Part shown: positions 3,660 to 39,512 of the stretch, in pieces
How the letters are laid out: the number at the start of each line of letters is the position of its first letter
Position numbering within the stretch: position 1 is the first letter of the stretch
Source of the DNA: Steroidobacteraceae bacterium
GTDB taxonomy: Bacteria; Pseudomonadota; Gammaproteobacteria; Steroidobacterales; Steroidobacteraceae
DNA length: 42,896 bases
Direction of reading: 5' to 3'
Assembly: GCA_019683695.1 (NCBI GenBank)
Contig: JADGHX010000020.1
Span: forward strand, 1 to 42,896
Position numbers and translations under genes: made by a program
Notes under the pieces: generated by a model
What the model saw: only the letters and a program-made list of their open reading frames with translations
Database searches by the model: none
Told to the model about the DNA's origin: nothing

Positions 3660-4973
3660 ATGGACGAGATCGGCGTCGTGGGCGTCACTTATCGTCACGC
3701 GAGCGCGGACGAGATCGCCGCCTTTACCCTCCCGAAAGGGGAGCTGGCGGAGCGCCTGCCTGCGCTCCGCGCGGCGATCGGTGCGGCCGAGCTCATCTAT
3801 CTGGCGACGTGCAACCGCGTCGAGGTGGCCTTTGCCGCCCCGGCGGGCCAGATTGCGCACGATCTTCGCGCCGACGTCTTTCATGCCCTCACGGGCCGCC
3901 CGCCGCGCGCGAACGAAGCGCGTTCGGCGCTGCGCGCGTGGACGGGTGAGGCGGCGGTCGAGCATCTCTTCCTCGTCGCCTGCGGCCTGGATTCCGCGCA
4001 GGCCGGTGAGCGCGAGATCGCCGCCCAGCTGCGCGGCGCCTGGGATCTGGCGCGAGAGGCCCGGGTTTCCGGCCCCGTGCTGGATCGCATCCTGGGCGAA
4101 GCGCTGAGCCTCTCGGGCCGGCTGCAGCGCATGGTGGCCGATGCCCGTCCTCCCTCCCTTGCTGACATGGCGGCGGACCGCATGCTGCTGCATCTTGCGG
4201 ATCGCCCCGGTACCGTCGCGCTCGTGGGCGTCTCGCCCATGACCAAACGATGTGGAGAGATCCTCCATCGGGCCGGTGTGCAGGTGCTGGTGGTGAACCG
4301 GTCTGCCGAAACGGGCGAGGAGTTCGCCAACTCGATTGGCGCCTCCGCCATGCCGCTCGCCGAGTTCCGCACGAACCCATACCCGATCTCGGGCCTGATC
4401 GTGGCAACCGGCGGCACCGAGCCAGTGCTCGGGCCGGAGGCGTTGCAGAGGCTGGCGGGCGTCGTGACGGCCCCGCCGCTCATCATCGACTTCGGACTGC
4501 CGCCGAACGTCGACCCGAAGGCGGCGCGCGAAGAAGGCTTCGATCGCATCGGCATGAACGAGATGATCCAGGCGGCGCAGGATCGGCGGCTCGCCCAGCT
4601 GCTGCGGCTCGCGCCGATGCGTGCGGCCATCGACGAGCGGCTGGCGCGTCTGCGCGGGCAGCTCGCCACCCGAGCCATGGGCCGCCAGCTCGCACAGTTG
4701 CGCAGCGAATTCGAGCGGATTGCCGCGGATGAAGCGAACCGTGCGCTCGCCGAAGAGCTGCAGAAGCTGAGCGCGGAACAGCAGGAACACGTGCGCCGCG
4801 TGGCCAGCACCATCGCACATCGGCTGGCTCACTTGCCGCTGGCGGGAATTCGTGCCGCCGCCGCGCACGCCAGCACGGAGACGGTTGACGCGTTCTTCCG
4901 TGAGGCGCGCCTCCAGCGCGCAACGCGTGCCGGCGCGGCGCATACTCGAACCCATACTGAAAAGAGATCGTGA
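3660..4973 (+). CDS. hemA: Glutamyl-tRNA reductase (divergent)
   Basis: A 437-residue cytosolic enzyme that reduces glutamyl-tRNA(Glu) with NADPH to glutamate-1-semialdehyde, the first committed step of C5-pathway tetrapyrrole synthesis. The nucleophilic Cys lies in YLATCNRVEV (Cys51), and EHLFLVACGLDS keeps the conserved His102 region with AGEREI after it. A C-terminal helical dimerisation domain follows. Two parts depart from the family: the N-terminal substrate loop, usually NHxTAPVxxRE, reads TYRHASADEIAAF and lacks the expected Thr and Arg, and the NADPH glycine-rich loop reads VGVSPMTK instead of IGAGxM. It is first in the hem cluster and its TGA shares one base with the hemL ATG. No good ribosome-binding site precedes ATG 3660, so the start is less certain. 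It could be a second, specialised HemA. Confidence 0.85.
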   Translation: MDEIGVVGVTYRHASADEIAAFTLPKGELAERLPALRAAIGAAELIYLATCNRVEVAFAAPAGQIAHDLRADVFHALTGRPPRANEARSALRAWTGEAAVEHLFLVACGLDSAQAGEREIAAQLRGAWDLAREARVSGPVLDRILGEALSLSGRLQRMVADARPPSLADMAADRMLLHLADRPGTVALVGVSPMTKRCGEILHRAGVQVLVVNRSAETGEEFANSIGASAMPLAEFRTNPYPISGLIVATGGTEPVLGPEALQRLAGVVTAPPLIIDFGLPPNVDPKAAREEGFDRIGMNEMIQAAQDRRLAQLLRLAPMRAAIDERLARLRGQLATRAMGRQLAQLRSEFERIAADEANRALAEELQKLSAEQQEHVRRVASTIAHRLAHLPLAGIRAAAAHASTETVDAFFREARLQRATRAGAAHTRTHTEKRS

Positions 4974-16755: not shown

Positions 16756-17319
16756 ATGATGTCAGCCATGGCAAGCGTGGGTGGGCAGGAGATCGACTGG
16801 GAGGCGGCGCTGATCCAGCGCGCGTCGAAGGGCGATGCGTCTGCGTTCGAGCGGCTTTATCGGGAGTATTCCGGGCGCGTGTACGCCCTTTGCCTGCGCA
16901 TGACGCGGGACGCCGCGCTGGCCGAGGACTGCACGCAGGAAACCTTCATCAACGCCTGGCGCGCGCTCGCGCGGTTCGAAACCCGTAGCGCCTTCGGCAC
17001 CTGGCTACACCGGATCGCCGTCAACGTCGTCCTCGGTCGCCGCCGCCGTTCCAGCTTCGGCGCGGAAGCCTCGCTCGAGTCGGACCATCTCGAAGAGACC
17101 GAGTGGGCGTTCGACACGCCGGTCGAGGAAAGCGAGATCGAGGACGCGATCGCCGAATTGCCCGAGGGCGCGCGGGACGTGCTGGTGCTCTCCGGCATCT
17201 ACGGCTACTCGCACGTCGAGACGGCACAGATGCTCGGCGTGGCCGAAGGCACCTGCAAGGCGCAGCTGCACCGGGCGCGAAAGCTCCTGAAGGAGCGGCT
17301 GAACGTGGAGATGAGCTGA
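16756..17319 (+). CDS. RNA polymerase ECF sigma factor
   Basis: A 187-residue sigma-70 family factor of the ECF type. Region 2 covers FERLYREYSGRVYALCLRM to the DCTQETFINAWRALARF and TWLHRIAVNVVL segments (core binding and -10 recognition). After an acidic linker (LESDHLEETEWAF), region 4 carries the -35-binding helix-turn-helix: LPEGARDVLVLSGIYGYSHV, then VAEGTCKAQLHRARKLLKE. The anti-sigma candidate begins 1 base after the stop, and a DUF4097 gene follows, the usual autoregulated layout. Start choices are ATG 16756, 16759 or 16768; 16756 was kept, but a short leader and weak ribosome-binding site leave this open. Confidence 0.93.
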   Translation: MMSAMASVGGQEIDWEAALIQRASKGDASAFERLYREYSGRVYALCLRMTRDAALAEDCTQETFINAWRALARFETRSAFGTWLHRIAVNVVLGRRRRSSFGAEASLESDHLEETEWAFDTPVEESEIEDAIAELPEGARDVLVLSGIYGYSHVETAQMLGVAEGTCKAQLHRARKLLKERLNVEMS

Positions 17320-17320
17320 A

Positions 17321-17908
17321 ATGGCAAATCCGAACGGCACCGACAGCCGCAAGAACCGCATTCGCTCGCTGCGAGAGCTGCCGCAGGATATTCCGCCGGC
17401 GCGGGACCTGTGGCCGGACATCGCAGCGCGCATCGAAAAGCATGCGCAGGGCGCGGATCATCCGTCGGTGGAGACCTCCCGCCGGCGGCCACGCCCCTCG
17501 CGCGTGCCCTGGGTGGCGCTCGCCGCAGCGGTCGCAGCATTGGCCGTCGGCGTTTGGGTGGGCCGCGCGCTGCTGCCTGCGTCGGGGGTTTCTGCGCCGG
17601 GCCAGCTCGCATCGAACGGCACGCAGCCGCTGCTGCCGGCGGCTTTCGTGAACGATCCGCGCTACATTGAAGAACGCAAACAGCTCGTGCAGCAGCTGGA
17701 AAAGAAGCTCGCCTCGCTGCCCCCCGAAACACAGAACAAGGTCAAAGCGAGCCTCGCGACGATCCGTCAATCCATCACCGACATCCAGGCCGCCCTGGGT
17801 CAGGACCCGGGTAACGCGCTCCTTCAGGAGCTGCTCGTCAACACGTATCAGGACGAGATGCGCGTGCTCGCAACCGTGAATCAAGCCCAACCGCGACAGG
17901 AGATCTGA
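17321..17908 (+). CDS. Probable membrane anti-sigma factor
   Basis: A 195-residue single-pass inner-membrane protein. The first ~60 residues are cytosolic and basic (LRELPQDIPPARDLWPDIAA resembles the N-terminal helix of anti-sigma domains), a transmembrane helix follows at about 63-82 (VPWVALAAAVAALAVGVWVG), and the periplasmic part has a coiled-coil-like region (PRYIEERKQLVQQLEKKLAS) and a helical tail. The zinc-binding HxxxCxxC motif of ZAS anti-sigma factors is absent. Function is inferred from its position one base after the ECF gene and its topology. It ends one base before the DUF4097 gene. Confidence 0.75.
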   Translation: MANPNGTDSRKNRIRSLRELPQDIPPARDLWPDIAARIEKHAQGADHPSVETSRRRPRPSRVPWVALAAAVAALAVGVWVGRALLPASGVSAPGQLASNGTQPLLPAAFVNDPRYIEERKQLVQQLEKKLASLPPETQNKVKASLATIRQSITDIQAALGQDPGNALLQELLVNTYQDEMRVLATVNQAQPRQEI

Positions 17909-17909
17909 C

Positions 17910-18800
17910 ATGCCCCGTCTTGCCCCAGTCACCGCCAGCCTGCTTCTCGCAGCCTGCTCATCGAGCTTCGCTGCCGGGAAAGTGTTCGATCGGAGCGCAG
18001 CGGCGGATCCGCAGGGTTCGGTCGAAGTTTCGAATGTCGCAGGCCAGGTCAGGATCATGGGCTGGGACAAGGCGGAGGTCGCCGTGCATGGCGAGCTCGA
18101 CGACAACGTCGAGCGCATCGAGTTTTCGAGCAACAAGGGTCGCACCGTCGTGAAAGTGGTTCTGCCTCGGAACTGCGGTAACGGCTGCGGGGCGGATCTG
18201 GAGATTCGCGTGCCGAAGCAGAGTGAGCTACGCGTGTCGACCGTCAGCGCTGATCTGCAAACGGAGAACATCATCGGCGTTCAGCGCCTGAATACCGTGA
18301 GTGGCGAGCTGACAGCGCACACCGCCGGTGCCAACTTCGATGGCCGGACGGTGAGCGGCGACCTGCGTGTGCTCGGCAACGGTGAGCCAGCCGAAACGCG
18401 AGTCGAAACCGTGAGCGGAAACGCCACGCTGCAACGCGTTGCGGGGCGCGTGGAAGCCACCTCCGTGAGCGGCGAACTGCACCTGGAGGTGGATCCTGCG
18501 CACAACGTGCGCCTGCGCACGACGTCGGGCGACGTCTCATTCCGGGGTCAGCTGACCGGCTCAGGCACTTTGGAGGCGGAATCCGTGAGCGGTGAAGTGA
18601 GGCTTACGACGCGCGCGCAGGAGGGGTTCGCGTACGAGGCCTCGAGCTTCAGCGGTGACCTGGACAACTGCTTTGGCGCCTCCGCCCAGTCCACCAGTGC
18701 CTTTGGCCCCGGCAGCCGCCTCAGCGGCTCGAGGGGAGAAGGGAAGGCCCGCGTGAGCGTGAAGACCATGAGCGGCGACGTGGAAATCTGCGACCGCTGA
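17910..18800 (+). CDS. DUF4097-family exported beta-solenoid protein
   Basis: A 296-residue exported protein. The N-terminus is a signal sequence (ASLLLAACSSSFAAG); LAAC at Cys16 could be a lipobox, making it a lipoprotein, otherwise cleavage after FAA is likely. The mature part consists of repeated beta rungs centred on a turn with the pattern [TS]xSG[DEN]x: VSADL, VSGEL, VSGDL, VSGNA, VSGEL, TSGDV, VSGEV, FSGDL and MSGDV, about nine in 170 residues. This is the DUF4097 (putative adhesin-like) pattern, probably a right-handed beta-solenoid. There are two Cys pairs (NCGNGC; NCFG and EICDR). It is third in the ECF operon and so is probably an envelope-stress output or input. Its molecular role is unknown. 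Confidence 0.85.
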   Translation: MPRLAPVTASLLLAACSSSFAAGKVFDRSAAADPQGSVEVSNVAGQVRIMGWDKAEVAVHGELDDNVERIEFSSNKGRTVVKVVLPRNCGNGCGADLEIRVPKQSELRVSTVSADLQTENIIGVQRLNTVSGELTAHTAGANFDGRTVSGDLRVLGNGEPAETRVETVSGNATLQRVAGRVEATSVSGELHLEVDPAHNVRLRTTSGDVSFRGQLTGSGTLEAESVSGEVRLTTRAQEGFAYEASSFSGDLDNCFGASAQSTSAFGPGSRLSGSRGEGKARVSVKTMSGDVEICDR

Positions 18801-18884
18801 GCGCGGCGGCCGCGCCCGGAAAATTGCTTTGTCAATGCTCTCGGGCGTAGCCGTTACCGTATGCCCCACGTCAAATGATGGCAC

Positions 18885-18909
18885 CCCGCGCACGATGATC
18901 GTGCGCGGG
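18885..18909. repeat. Perfect 12-bp inverted repeat
   Basis: CCCGCGCACGAT (18885-18896) pairs perfectly with 18898-18909 around a single central base; with one bulge the stem extends by four more pairs (GCAC at 18881-18884 with GTGC at 18911-18914). No T-tract follows. It could be a dimeric-protein binding site, or a 3-prime hairpin of the DUF4097 transcript, whose stop is 84 bases upstream. Confidence 0.7.
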
Positions 18910-18993
18910 CGTGCGGGGCCGCTCCATCAGCGCCCGCAAAGCGCGGCGCAACACCGCCGACGAGAAGCTCGCAAACTCCGCAAGTAACTGTTC

Positions 18994-19165
18994 CGAAAGG
19001 GAAGTCTCCCTTTCGAGTGCAATGGCACGGCCATTGCATTTCCGGGCTTGCGGACGTCGCCTCTACGTCCGCAAGGGTGGACCCCCGTGAAGGGTCAACC
19101 AGGCAACGCCGCCGGTCGCAGCTCGTGACCCCCTCGCGAAACTTTGCGGCCGGCGGCGTCTTTTT
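18994..19165 (+). ncRNA. Candidate structured noncoding RNA with intrinsic terminator
   Basis: Five adjacent hairpins are visible on the plus strand: (1) 18994-19002 with 19007-19015, 9 bp, loop AGTC; (2) 19018-19026 with 19030-19038, 9 bp, loop ACG; (3) 19047-19057 with 19065-19075, 11 bp, 7-base loop; (4) 19076-19084 with 19092-19100, 8 of 9 pairs; (5) 19106-19120 with 19145-19159, 15 pairs with one G-U, followed by CTTTTTC. Tight packing, with gaps of 0 to 8 bases, ending in a terminator suggests a stable RNA of about 175 bases or a long leader. It does not match the tmRNA, SRP RNA, RNase P, 6S or common riboswitch consensus patterns that I know. The 5-prime end is not determined. Confidence 0.5.
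19106..19165 (+). terminator. Intrinsic terminator ending the hairpin array
   Basis: Stem 19106-19120 with 19145-19159 (14 Watson-Crick pairs plus one G-U), 24-base loop, then CTTTTT at 19160-19165. It is 375 bases before the peptidase start, so it separates that gene from transcription entering from the left unless read-through is regulated. Confidence 0.65.
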
Positions 19166-19540
19166 CTCGGCTTCGGGCACTCACCAGAATCTGTCAGATC
19201 ACTGCGGGGCGCTGCCTGCGTTGAGACGAGGCGCATACAAGACGAGCGCGACACCAGTTACCGTCAGGAATCGCGCTTCTTGCCAGTGCGCGTGTATCCT
19301 CGCGCCCCGCAGCCGCAAGAAGGCGGCTTGCGGTGTTGTGCACGCCCAGGAAACCAACACGGACGTACAACAGGCAGAGCACCACCTTCGTTTTCGGAGC
19401 AGGATGCTCGCGTCCAACCGTGCAGCCCGGCGAACGCACGGTGGGCCCACAAGGCTCGATCCGCGGTGCCGGCAAGCGAAGGCGTTATTCGGAAAATCGC
19501 CGCACGCGATTTTCACAGTGAACTCGGAGAGGAACATTTC

Positions 19541-22279
19541 GTGAAGAAGGCGATCCTCGCACTGACCCTGATTCTGGTATCGGTCACCGCCGTCGCGTCG
19601 GCCGACCTGCCCGAGATCGACATTCCCTACACGAAGTACGTGCTGCCGAACGGGCTGCGCCTCATCGTTCACGAGGATCACAAGGCCCCGATCGTGGCCG
19701 TCAACGTGTGGTACCACGTGGGCAGCAAGGACGAGCGGCCCGGCCGCACCGGGTTTGCGCACCTCTTCGAGCATCTGATGTTCAACGGCTCGGAGAATCA
19801 CAACGACGAGTTCTTCCGGCCGCTCGAGCCCGCCGGCGCCACGAAGATGAACGGCACCACGTGGCTCGACCGCACGAACTACTACCAGAACGTTCCGGTC
19901 AGCGCGCTCGACCTCACGTTGTGGCTCGAGTCCGACCGCATGGGCCACCTGCTCGGGGCCATCGATCAGAAGAAGCTCGACGAGCAGCGCGGCGTCGTGC
20001 AGAACGAGAAGCGGCAGGGCGAGAACCAGCCCTACGGCAAGGTGGACGAGATCATCGCCGCCAACACGTATCCCGCCGGCCACCCGTACTCGTGGGAAAC
20101 CATCGGCTCGATGGAGGATCTGAACGCCGCATCGCTCGAGGACGTGAAGGAGTGGTTCCGCACGTACTACGGCGCGGCGAACGCGGTGCTCGTGCTGGCG
20201 GGAGACATCACGCCCGAGGAAGCGAAGAAGAAGGTCGAGTATTACTTCGGCGACATCGGTCCCGGGCCCGTGCTCAAGCACCAGAAGGCCTGGATCGCGA
20301 AGATGAGCGGCGAGAAGCGCGCCGTGCTCCAGGATCGCGTGCCCCAGGCGCGCATCTACAAGACCTGGAACATCCCGGGATTCGCCACGCGCGACTTTGC
20401 GCTGCTCGACCTCACCTCCGACATTCTCGCGAACGGCAAGAACAGCCGGCTCTACAAGCGGCTCGTTTACGAGGATCAGATCGCCACGTCGGTGCAGGCG
20501 GGTGTCGGGCCCTTCGAGATCGGCTCGCAACTGCAGATCATCGCCACCGTGAAGCCCGGCGGAGACGTGCGCGCGGTGGAGAAGGCGCTTGATGAGGAGC
20601 TGGAGAAGTTTCTGCGCAAAGGCCCCACGGCAGCCGAGCTGGAGCGCGTGCGCACGGCCGGATATGCGAGCTTCGTGCGCGGCCTGGAGCGCATCGATGG
20701 CGCCGGCGGCAAGTCGTTCATCCTGGCCCAGAGCGAGGTGTACGGGGGCTCGCCGGACTTCTACAAGCAGCAGTGGCGCTGGGTCAACGAGGCCACGCCG
20801 AAGGACGTGCAGAACGTCGCGAAGCAGTGGCTCTCGGATGGCGTCTTCGTGCTCGAAGTGCAGCCGGTGCCCGAGTACAAGGTGGCCTCCACGGGAGCCG
20901 ACCGCAGCAAGCTGCCCCCCGTAGGCACGCCGCCGGATCTGACTCTGCCGCCCCTCCAGCGCACCACGCTGTCGAACGGGCTGAAGGTGGTGCTGGCCGA
21001 GCGGCACAACGCGCCGGTCGTGGATGCCACGCTCATCATCGATGCGGGCTATGCGGCTGACAGTCTCGCGACGCCCGGTACGGCGAAGCTCACCTTCGCC
21101 ATGCTGGACGAGGGCACGAAGAAGCGCACGGCGCTGGAGATTGCCGAGCGCGCGGAATTGCTCGGCGCACGGCTCGGTGCGGGGTCATCGCTCGATACCT
21201 CGTTCCTTGGCGTGAATGCCATCACCAACAAGCTCGAGGAATCGCTGGAGCTGTTCAGCGACGTGCTGCTGAACCCCACGTTCCCGCAAGCGGACTTCGA
21301 TCGGCTGAAGGCGCAGACCCTCGCAGCCATTCAGCAGGAGCAGACGCAGCCGCAGGGCATCGCGCTTCGCCTGTTCCCGAAGCTGGTCTACGGAGAGGGG
21401 CACGCCTACTCGAATCCCTTCTCGGGCAATGGCACGGCAGAGGCCGTTTCCGCGCTTCAACGCTCGGATCTGGAGACCTTTCACAAGCGCTGGATTCGCC
21501 CGGACAACGCCACGCTGCTCATCGTCGGCGACACCACGCTCGAGAGCATCGTGCCGTTGCTCGAAAAATATCTGGGCAGCTGGAAGGCTCCGGACGAGTC
21601 GCTGCCGAAGAAGAACATCGCGCCGGTGCCGCAGCAGACGAAGCCCCGCGTGTTCCTCGTTAACCGTACGGGCGCGGAGCAGTCGCTCATTCTCGCGGGC
21701 TATGCCGGTCCGCCCCGCTCGGATCCGGACTACATTGCGCTCGAGACCGTGAACACGATTCTCGGCGGCAACTTCGTCTCGCGACTCAACATGAATCTGC
21801 GCGAGGAAAAGCACTGGTCGTATGGCGCGCGGAGCGGGTTGTCTCCGGCTGAAGGGCAGGGGCCGTTCCTCGTGCGCGCGCCGGTGCAGACGGACAAGAC
21901 CGCCGAGGCCATGCAGGAAACGCTCAAGGAGCTGAAAGACTTTCTCTCGGGCCGCCCGCCGACGGAAGCGGAGCTTGCATTCGCGCGCGACAGCCTCGTG
22001 CTGACGCTACCGGGCGCCAACGAGACCTCGGACGGCGTTGCGGGTTCTTATGCGGAAGTTCTCATGTACGGCCTCAAGGATTCGTACTGGAACGACTACG
22101 TGGATGTCGTGCGGTCCCTGACGCCCGCACAGATCTCGGCCGCGGCACAGAAGCTCATCCATCCGGATGCGCTCACGTGGGTGATCGTCGGCGACCTCGA
22201 GAAGATCGAGGAGCCCGTGCGCAAGCTCGGGTTCGGCGAAGTGAAGGTGCTCGACACCGAGGGCAACGTGCTGCGATGA
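19541..22279 (+). CDS. Two-domain M16 zinc metallopeptidase, exported
   Basis: A 912-residue periplasmic peptidase of the M16 (pitrilysin) family. The N-terminus is a signal peptide (KKAILALTLILVSVTAVASA). The first half holds the inverted zinc site HLFEHLMF (His74, Glu77, His78) with the third ligand probably Glu156 in QNEKRQGEN, about 77 residues on, and an M16C-type domain after it. The second half begins near LQRTTLSNGLKVVLAERHNA and repeats the fold without HxxEH, as in the non-catalytic partner halves; RxxxY-type substrate residues occur (REEKHWSYGARS). Start GTG 19541 is chosen because GGAGAGGAAC lies just upstream and it gives a clean signal peptide; the frame continues upstream in unlikely sequence. 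Substrates are unknown. Confidence 0.93.
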   Translation: MKKAILALTLILVSVTAVASADLPEIDIPYTKYVLPNGLRLIVHEDHKAPIVAVNVWYHVGSKDERPGRTGFAHLFEHLMFNGSENHNDEFFRPLEPAGATKMNGTTWLDRTNYYQNVPVSALDLTLWLESDRMGHLLGAIDQKKLDEQRGVVQNEKRQGENQPYGKVDEIIAANTYPAGHPYSWETIGSMEDLNAASLEDVKEWFRTYYGAANAVLVLAGDITPEEAKKKVEYYFGDIGPGPVLKHQKAWIAKMSGEKRAVLQDRVPQARIYKTWNIPGFATRDFALLDLTSDILANGKNSRLYKRLVYEDQIATSVQAGVGPFEIGSQLQIIATVKPGGDVRAVEKALDEELEKFLRKGPTAAELERVRTAGYASFVRGLERIDGAGGKSFILAQSEVYGGSPDFYKQQWRWVNEATPKDVQNVAKQWLSDGVFVLEVQPVPEYKVASTGADRSKLPPVGTPPDLTLPPLQRTTLSNGLKVVLAERHNAPVVDATLIIDAGYAADSLATPGTAKLTFAMLDEGTKKRTALEIAERAELLGARLGAGSSLDTSFLGVNAITNKLEESLELFSDVLLNPTFPQADFDRLKAQTLAAIQQEQTQPQGIALRLFPKLVYGEGHAYSNPFSGNGTAEAVSALQRSDLETFHKRWIRPDNATLLIVGDTTLESIVPLLEKYLGSWKAPDESLPKKNIAPVPQQTKPRVFLVNRTGAEQSLILAGYAGPPRSDPDYIALETVNTILGGNFVSRLNMNLREEKHWSYGARSGLSPAEGQGPFLVRAPVQTDKTAEAMQETLKELKDFLSGRPPTEAELAFARDSLVLTLPGANETSDGVAGSYAEVLMYGLKDSYWNDYVDVVRSLTPAQISAAAQKLIHPDALTWVIVGDLEKIEEPVRKLGFGEVKVLDTEGNVLR

Positions 22280-39436: not shown

Positions 39437-39512
<76 letters not shown>

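Follow-up and report, generated by a model that had tools for sequence, protein, structure and literature searches.

The locus examined here lies in a 42,896-nucleotide stretch of DNA from a Steroidobacteraceae bacterium (the window, below, is that whole stretch), between a DUF4097 gene and an M16 peptidase gene. The DUF4097 protein is the last of three encoded in a row at 16756-18800, after an ECF sigma factor and a weak anti-sigma-like protein (below the cut-off). An initial annotation had described five near-perfect, adjacent stems with a final CTTTTT in the intergenic stretch, and had read them as one undescribed structured RNA. The features of the locus are:

17910-18800, plus strand: DUF4097 gene, upstream context
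18885-18909, no strand: palindrome with an NtrC-type dyad GCACGATGATCGTGC at 18890-18904 (GCAC-N7-GTGC), predicted enhancer; absent from the initial annotation
18994-19015, no strand: stem 1 (18994-19002/19007-19015), perfect inverted repeat of 9 pairs between enhancer and promoter
19018-19026/19030-19038: stem 2, inverted repeat of 9 pairs (11 in the fold), overlapping the sigma-54 promoter
19023-19038, plus strand: sigma-54 promoter TGGCACGGCCATTGCA (TGGCACG-N4-TTGCA), the only exact match in the window
19047-19057/19065-19075, plus strand: stem 3, hairpin 1 of the predicted RNA, 11 pairs, from the fold
19076-19084/19092-19100, plus strand: stem 4, hairpin 2 of the predicted RNA, 3+5 pairs around one mismatch, 7-nt loop CCGUGAA
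19102-19113, plus strand: P2-like mini-hairpin GGC-AACGCC-GCC, loop with A at position 1 and G at 4; it overlaps the terminator at its 5' base
19106-19120/19145-19159, plus strand: stem 5, terminator hairpin, 14 Watson-Crick pairs and one G-U (16 pairs in the fold)
19124-19138, plus strand: conserved apical CGTGACCCCCTCGCG with C-rich loop, proposed seed, from the terminator alignment
19160-19165, plus strand: 3' end of the terminator, C19160 followed by TTTTT at 19161-19165 (terminator with T tract, 19106-19165)
19541-22279, plus strand: M16 peptidase gene, start GTG at 19541; downstream context, not part of the RNA

All five stems and the final CTTTTT were recovered within 18994-19165, each where the initial annotation had placed it, from the listing of inverted repeats and the fold. 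The comparison with shuffled sequence that it had proposed for 18850-19200 likewise came out in its favor, with a folding energy of -176.1 kcal/mol, whereas 100 dinucleotide shuffles averaged -137.28 (sd 5.34) and none was as good (z = -7.27); for the minus strand of the same region z was -4.73. Stems 3-5 alone (19047-19165) gave z = -6.71 and the upstream part with stems 1 and 2 (18920-19046) z = -3.94, with 0 of 200 shuffles as good in either case; as the part upstream of 19047 also beats its shuffles, fold scores alone cannot separate RNA from DNA repeats. A simple terminator scan, whose rule requires the stem to be closed directly by a short loop (3-8 bases), found no terminator; the stem of this one carries an inner hairpin.

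The sigma-54 promoter pattern TGGCACnnnnnTTGC, with GG and GC at -24/-12, is matched exactly at 19023-19038, and the arms of stem 2 contain both of its elements; the consensus is TGGCACnnTTnTTGC in the accessible text of PMC8743547. With one mismatch allowed, the window contains 2 matches to the promoter pattern, against 0.60 expected. Transcripts from sigma-54 promoters begin about 12 bases past the -12 GC, and this spacing puts the predicted transcript start at 19047-19048, where stem 3 begins. Judged from the sequence, stems 1 and 2 thus lie in the DNA before the putative RNA gene, and stem 2 is the promoter itself. The single RNA of five hairpins was accordingly abandoned, since stem 2 doubles as promoter and stems 1-2 precede the predicted start; what is predicted instead is an RNA of three hairpins, stems 3-5, that covers about 19047-19165 and ends in the terminator. 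By eye, the 100 bases that precede each of the other copies described below contain no repeat resembling stem 1. The host genome carries two rpoN genes (L103, G000:C276; L104, G000:C255) as well as hfq.

Upstream of the promoter, the dyad at 18890-18904 shares with the NtrC box, given as TGCACCAnnnTGGTGCA (TGCACC-N5-GGTGCA) in the available part of PMC8743547, the core and spacing GCAC-N7-GTGC but not the T/A ends or the CC/GG letters. The window contains five exact dyads where chance would give 2.35, so the argument rests on the position of the dyad rather than on its mere presence. It lies 133 bases upstream of the sigma-54 promoter, and the corresponding positions are -133 at the host nrtA leader, -122 at the host nirB leader and -134 at the copy in genome G004. 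In an enhancer scan (L038 excluded), an exact dyad was present in 12 of 20 leader-type rows, 11 of these 12 between -113 and -135, and in 4 of ten orphan rows (L064 included), a fifth having one mismatch at -129; the second copy in the host (G000:C306) has no exact dyad upstream. Exact dyads numbered 12 over a total of 112,260 bases, or about 0.003 for every 31-base span, in a pool that includes the sites in question. Over the whole host genome (G000), dyad, 95-125 bases and promoter occur together at three places, namely two nas leaders and the window RNA; the reversed control gave 2, so that the count proves little; which three places these are is more telling. NtrC is the putative activator of the window promoter, to judge from this layout.

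In an Rfam search of the window, the RNA locus had no match, the sole match being a tRNA gene at 39437-39509 (Rfam tRNA, 72.4 bits). Raising E to 10 brought three weak matches, far below gathering scores and none of them sX13, and 16 related loci gave 0 matches. Together with the fold and the copies in relatives, this upholds the proposal of an undescribed structured, terminated RNA. A DNA search for homologues matched 3 of 59 genomes, the host itself included; one non-host match of 26 bases (L006 in G019) reads as coding sequence and was dropped. Against plasmids and phages, the window RNA gave no match at E 0.01. A covariance model of the downstream hairpins (R1) reached at least 10 of 217 family genomes, at no fewer than 13 places; one terminator arm from G004 is misaligned by one base in this model and no more than 16 candidates were scored in each genome, so that its misses mean little. 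The promoter followed after 57-87 bases by GYRMCCCCCYC was found at 11 places in 7 of the 217 genomes (reversed control, 2), and an order-wide search with GTGACCCCCTC at 6 places in 4 of 396 genomes, all in the family of the host, with no control match in its result table. The hairpins of the homologues are preceded by TGGCAY-N5-TTGC, the sigma-54 consensus; L016 (G062) has the same terminator and no clear sigma-54 promoter upstream. The second copy in the host has no T tract. Orphan copies in the host, G004, G105, G106 and G107 adjoin, by eye and within the retrieved stretches, genes other than nas: an M16 peptidase, a small ORF, mutY and others. When ten orphan copies were folded, all came out below their shuffles (z from -2.4 to -8.7).

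The same promoter also precedes leaders of nitrate assimilation operons. Promoter, 60-90 bases and GGCAACGC occur together at 18 places in 17 of the 217 family genomes (reversed control, 7), and promoter, 50-80 bases and GGCAACGCYGCC at 24 loci of a named genome collection. Of the latter, 18 show the full layout and one, L038, is truncated by the end of its locus; the other five (L039, L046, L051, L053, L057) do not fold in this way and were dropped as chance. Loci of this type were seen in Steroidobacter, Peristeroidobacter, Povalibacter, gammaproteobacterial MAGs, Hoeflea and one further alphaproteobacterial MAG, many of them lying, by eye, between NasT/NasS-like and nitrate-uptake or nirB genes. 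HMM checks, which covered L063, L060, L052 and L045, identified a response regulator with ANTAR domain at L063 and L052, NirB at L063, and NMT1_2 proteins of the NasS/NrtA type at L060 and L052; the protein beside L045, considered as NasR, is a CHASE3 histidine kinase by Pfam and was set aside. A nas leader attenuated by NasT, called NalA at nirBD, is described in the accessible part of PMC12830290, and the nas-operon loci are this known leader. The host has its own nas locus (L063, contig C127), with two leaders, at 4724 (minus strand) and 6835 (plus strand), and with the sole ANTAR protein found in the host genome, one NasT.

The window RNA carries one of the two elements of an ANTAR dual-hairpin RNA. 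As stated in the available portion of PMC3369931, the ANTAR rule asks for two hairpins, each with a hexaloop having A at position 1 and G at position 4. Such a hexaloop stands at the 5' base of the terminator (19102-19113), in a mini-hairpin identical to P2 of the nas leaders, and the second host copy carries GGC-AACGCC-GUC. No A1/G4 hexaloop was found for P1, the loops of hairpins 1 and 2 being of 7 nt; this weighs less because the host nas leaders themselves break the rule, their P1 hexaloops (AGCAUU, AGCAGC) having A at 1 but A at 4. Among nas leaders of the family (L063, L042, L044, L060, L040, L050), P1 hexaloops such as AGCAGC, AACAGC, AAUAGC and GACAGC have A at 4, and that of the Hoeflea leader, AAUGAC, has G at 4. 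P2 is not kept in the copies of G004, G106:C62, G105 and G107, whereas the C-rich loop is, and the gene next downstream of the window RNA, 376 bases on, is the M16 peptidase gene rather than one of nitrogen metabolism. Thus, measured against the NalA and NasT-NasR leaders as portrayed in the accessible text of PMC12830290, PMC5424462 and PMC3369931, the window RNA shares the sigma-54 promoter, putative NtrC control, small hairpins before the terminator and P2, but differs in not preceding a nitrogen gene, in having no A1/G4 P1, in its conserved C-rich loop and in its several copies per genome. The two are probably related by common descent. In the nas-type leaders L045, L047, L048 and L059, the terminator loop is CACACCCCCCGC, C-rich like that of the orphan RNAs.

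In the terminator, the apical GTGACCCCCTC hardly changes while the stem varies with its pairing kept. An alignment of 11 rows was used, with L074 (G108) and L076 (G025) excluded for their other layouts and L016 (G062) and L066 (G106:C62) included. GTG(A/C)CCCCCTC occurs in all 11, with A in 10; nine rows were obtained through R1, which has the loop in its seeds, and two by way of the loop pattern, so that this invariance is partly built in, and the same caveat of row selection applies to the apical C-rich stretch as the mark of a C-rich-loop sRNA. Stem cells were paired in 89.8% (75.9 in shuffles), double-change cells numbered 26 (9.2 in shuffles, at most 5 in slid versions) and the covariation score was 0.401 (0.153 in shuffles). 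Two other measures did not go beyond shuffles: 40 of 500 shuffles equaled the number of pairs changed on both sides and 295 of 500 that of pair types, or surpassed it. The double changes, moreover, mostly fall between two stem types, so that few independent events are involved. For hairpins 1 and 2, covariation over only three sequences was not significant. The expectation of homologues with compensatory changes is thus borne out for the homologues themselves and, on some measures, for the terminator stem, but not for the other hairpins. The 15-mer CGTGACCCCCTCKCG occurs 11 times in the 217 family genomes, 9 of them within these RNAs, against 8 for its reversed control; the two places in G108 and G119 look coding and were not counted as this RNA. 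In three RNAs (two in G105, one in G107), GTGACCCCCTC is present in both hairpins, an observation with no dependence on row selection and the strongest indication that the work is done by the loop.

A search of the host genome for complementary sites brought no enrichment: the loop complement GCGAGGGGGT occurs at 10 places, one of which is the antisense of the RNA itself, against 9 for the reversed control. At L097 (G000:C201) and L102 (G000:C307), the ribosome-binding site CGCGAGGGGGU is perfectly complementary to the RNA loop over 11 bases, with ATG 15 bases on; the ORFs that follow are short paralogs (MSE...) with no Pfam match, and the two loci amount at most to one independent target lead. 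Several known sRNAs offer models. NrsZ of Pseudomonas aeruginosa is a stand-alone sRNA under NtrC and sigma-54, as the window RNA is predicted to be. Rli55 and EutX are sRNAs that sequester the ANTAR protein EutV; the window RNA likewise has an ANTAR-type element outside its operon, but lacks the first ANTAR hairpin. The closest functional parallel is sX13 of Xanthomonas, which the accessible part of PMC3771888 describes as a stand-alone gene for an RNA of about 115 nt with three stems and C-rich loops (4C, 4C, 5C), repressing mRNAs with G-rich motifs near the start. Three hairpins, a stand-alone gene and a C-rich apical loop are also features of the window RNA, in which, unlike in sX13, the conserved C-rich loop sits in the terminator and polA is not adjacent. 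In the same portion of that paper, sX13 is reported only in Xanthomonadaceae, always downstream of polA, and a sigma-54/NtrC layout is not reported for it (PMC3771888). The Rfam search places the window RNA outside sX13 by sequence and structure. In a literature search that covered a minority of subscription journals, no paper turned up that describes a sigma-54-dependent sRNA with a C-rich loop or any sRNA of Steroidobacter.

Overall, we suggest, with a probability of roughly 55%, that the locus is a nitrogen-starvation sRNA gene in a relative of Steroidobacter, whose product acts in trans through its C-rich loop in the manner of sX13. This reading builds on computed results, namely the structure, the promoter and dyad matches, the copies beside different genes and the loop kept while the stem changes; transcription, activation by NtrC, action in trans and the seed role of the loop are what we infer. 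Under nitrogen limitation, NtrC would bind the dyad at 18885-18909 and activate sigma-54 RNA polymerase at 19023-19038; transcription from near 19047 to 19165 would yield a three-hairpin RNA of about 118 nt. Its last hairpin, the terminator, would expose the C-rich loop GUGACCCCCUC, and this loop would repress messages by pairing in trans with G-rich sequence close to their start codons. We file the RNA as an undescribed family of a known functional kind, the C-rich-loop sRNAs.

Four other explanations bear on the same evidence. Chance hairpins in G+C-rich DNA are very improbable: G+C is high and the upstream part, read as non-RNA, also folds better than shuffles, but the RNA itself has z = -6.7, homologues in other genera and an exact promoter. 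An attenuation leader of the M16 peptidase gene, as the initial annotation had entertained, would fit the same-strand gene next downstream and the habit of nas leaders of attenuating the genes that follow them; yet GTG 19541 lies 376 bases past the terminator and the genes downstream of other copies differ (mutY or a small ORF), which makes this improbable too, if less extremely so. Could the RNA instead titrate the antiterminator NasT, as Rli55 and EutX do EutV? The exact P2 in the window, its near-identical form in the second copy, the one NasT of the host and a promoter and enhancer arranged as in nas leaders speak for such a decoy; on the other hand, P2 has no A1/G4 hexaloop hairpin before it, hairpin 2 having a 7-nt loop, and the copies of G004, G106:C62, G105 and G107 have lost P2 while retaining the C-rich loop, so that we hold it to be unlikely. 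Only slightly less unlikely is a sigma-54 leader or terminator of the nas type that has strayed or is in decay and plays no part in trans, its C-rich loop serving only to shape an efficient terminator. Many nas leaders share the layout, some (L045, L047, L048, L059) with C-rich terminator loops, and targets were not enriched; the retention of the loop across two unrelated stem types and its repetition in a non-terminator hairpin of three RNAs speak against this reading.

As to the origin of this sRNA, we tentatively propose that a nas attenuator became a free regulator: copied out with its promoter and NtrC enhancer, it would have lost P1, its terminator loop turning into a CCCCC seed that silences G-rich messages, and would then have multiplied until a genome held several copies. 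Since L045, L047, L048 and L059, which are still leaders in place, already have a C-rich terminator loop, a single RNA may serve both as leader and as sRNA. Since promoter, enhancer and P2 are common to leaders and sRNA, the step from one to the other is testable. If correct, the proposal would add an undescribed nitrogen-controlled sRNA family to the family of Steroidobacter and a concrete case of an attenuator leader that has perhaps become a trans-acting sRNA.

Further loci carry RNAs of this or a similar type. At L070 (G105:C195), L072 (G106:C78) and L079 (G107:C389), the RNA lies between motB-like and opgH-like genes (named by eye), with a sigma-54 promoter of the TTTGCTTTA type and the same CGTGACCCCCTC loop; a second regulon may use the same loop. 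L074 (G108:C105) and L076 (G025:C468) have sigma-54 promoters with structured RNAs of other kinds after them, whose loops read ACCCCCUC or GCCCCCCUC; these may be distant members of the RNA family.
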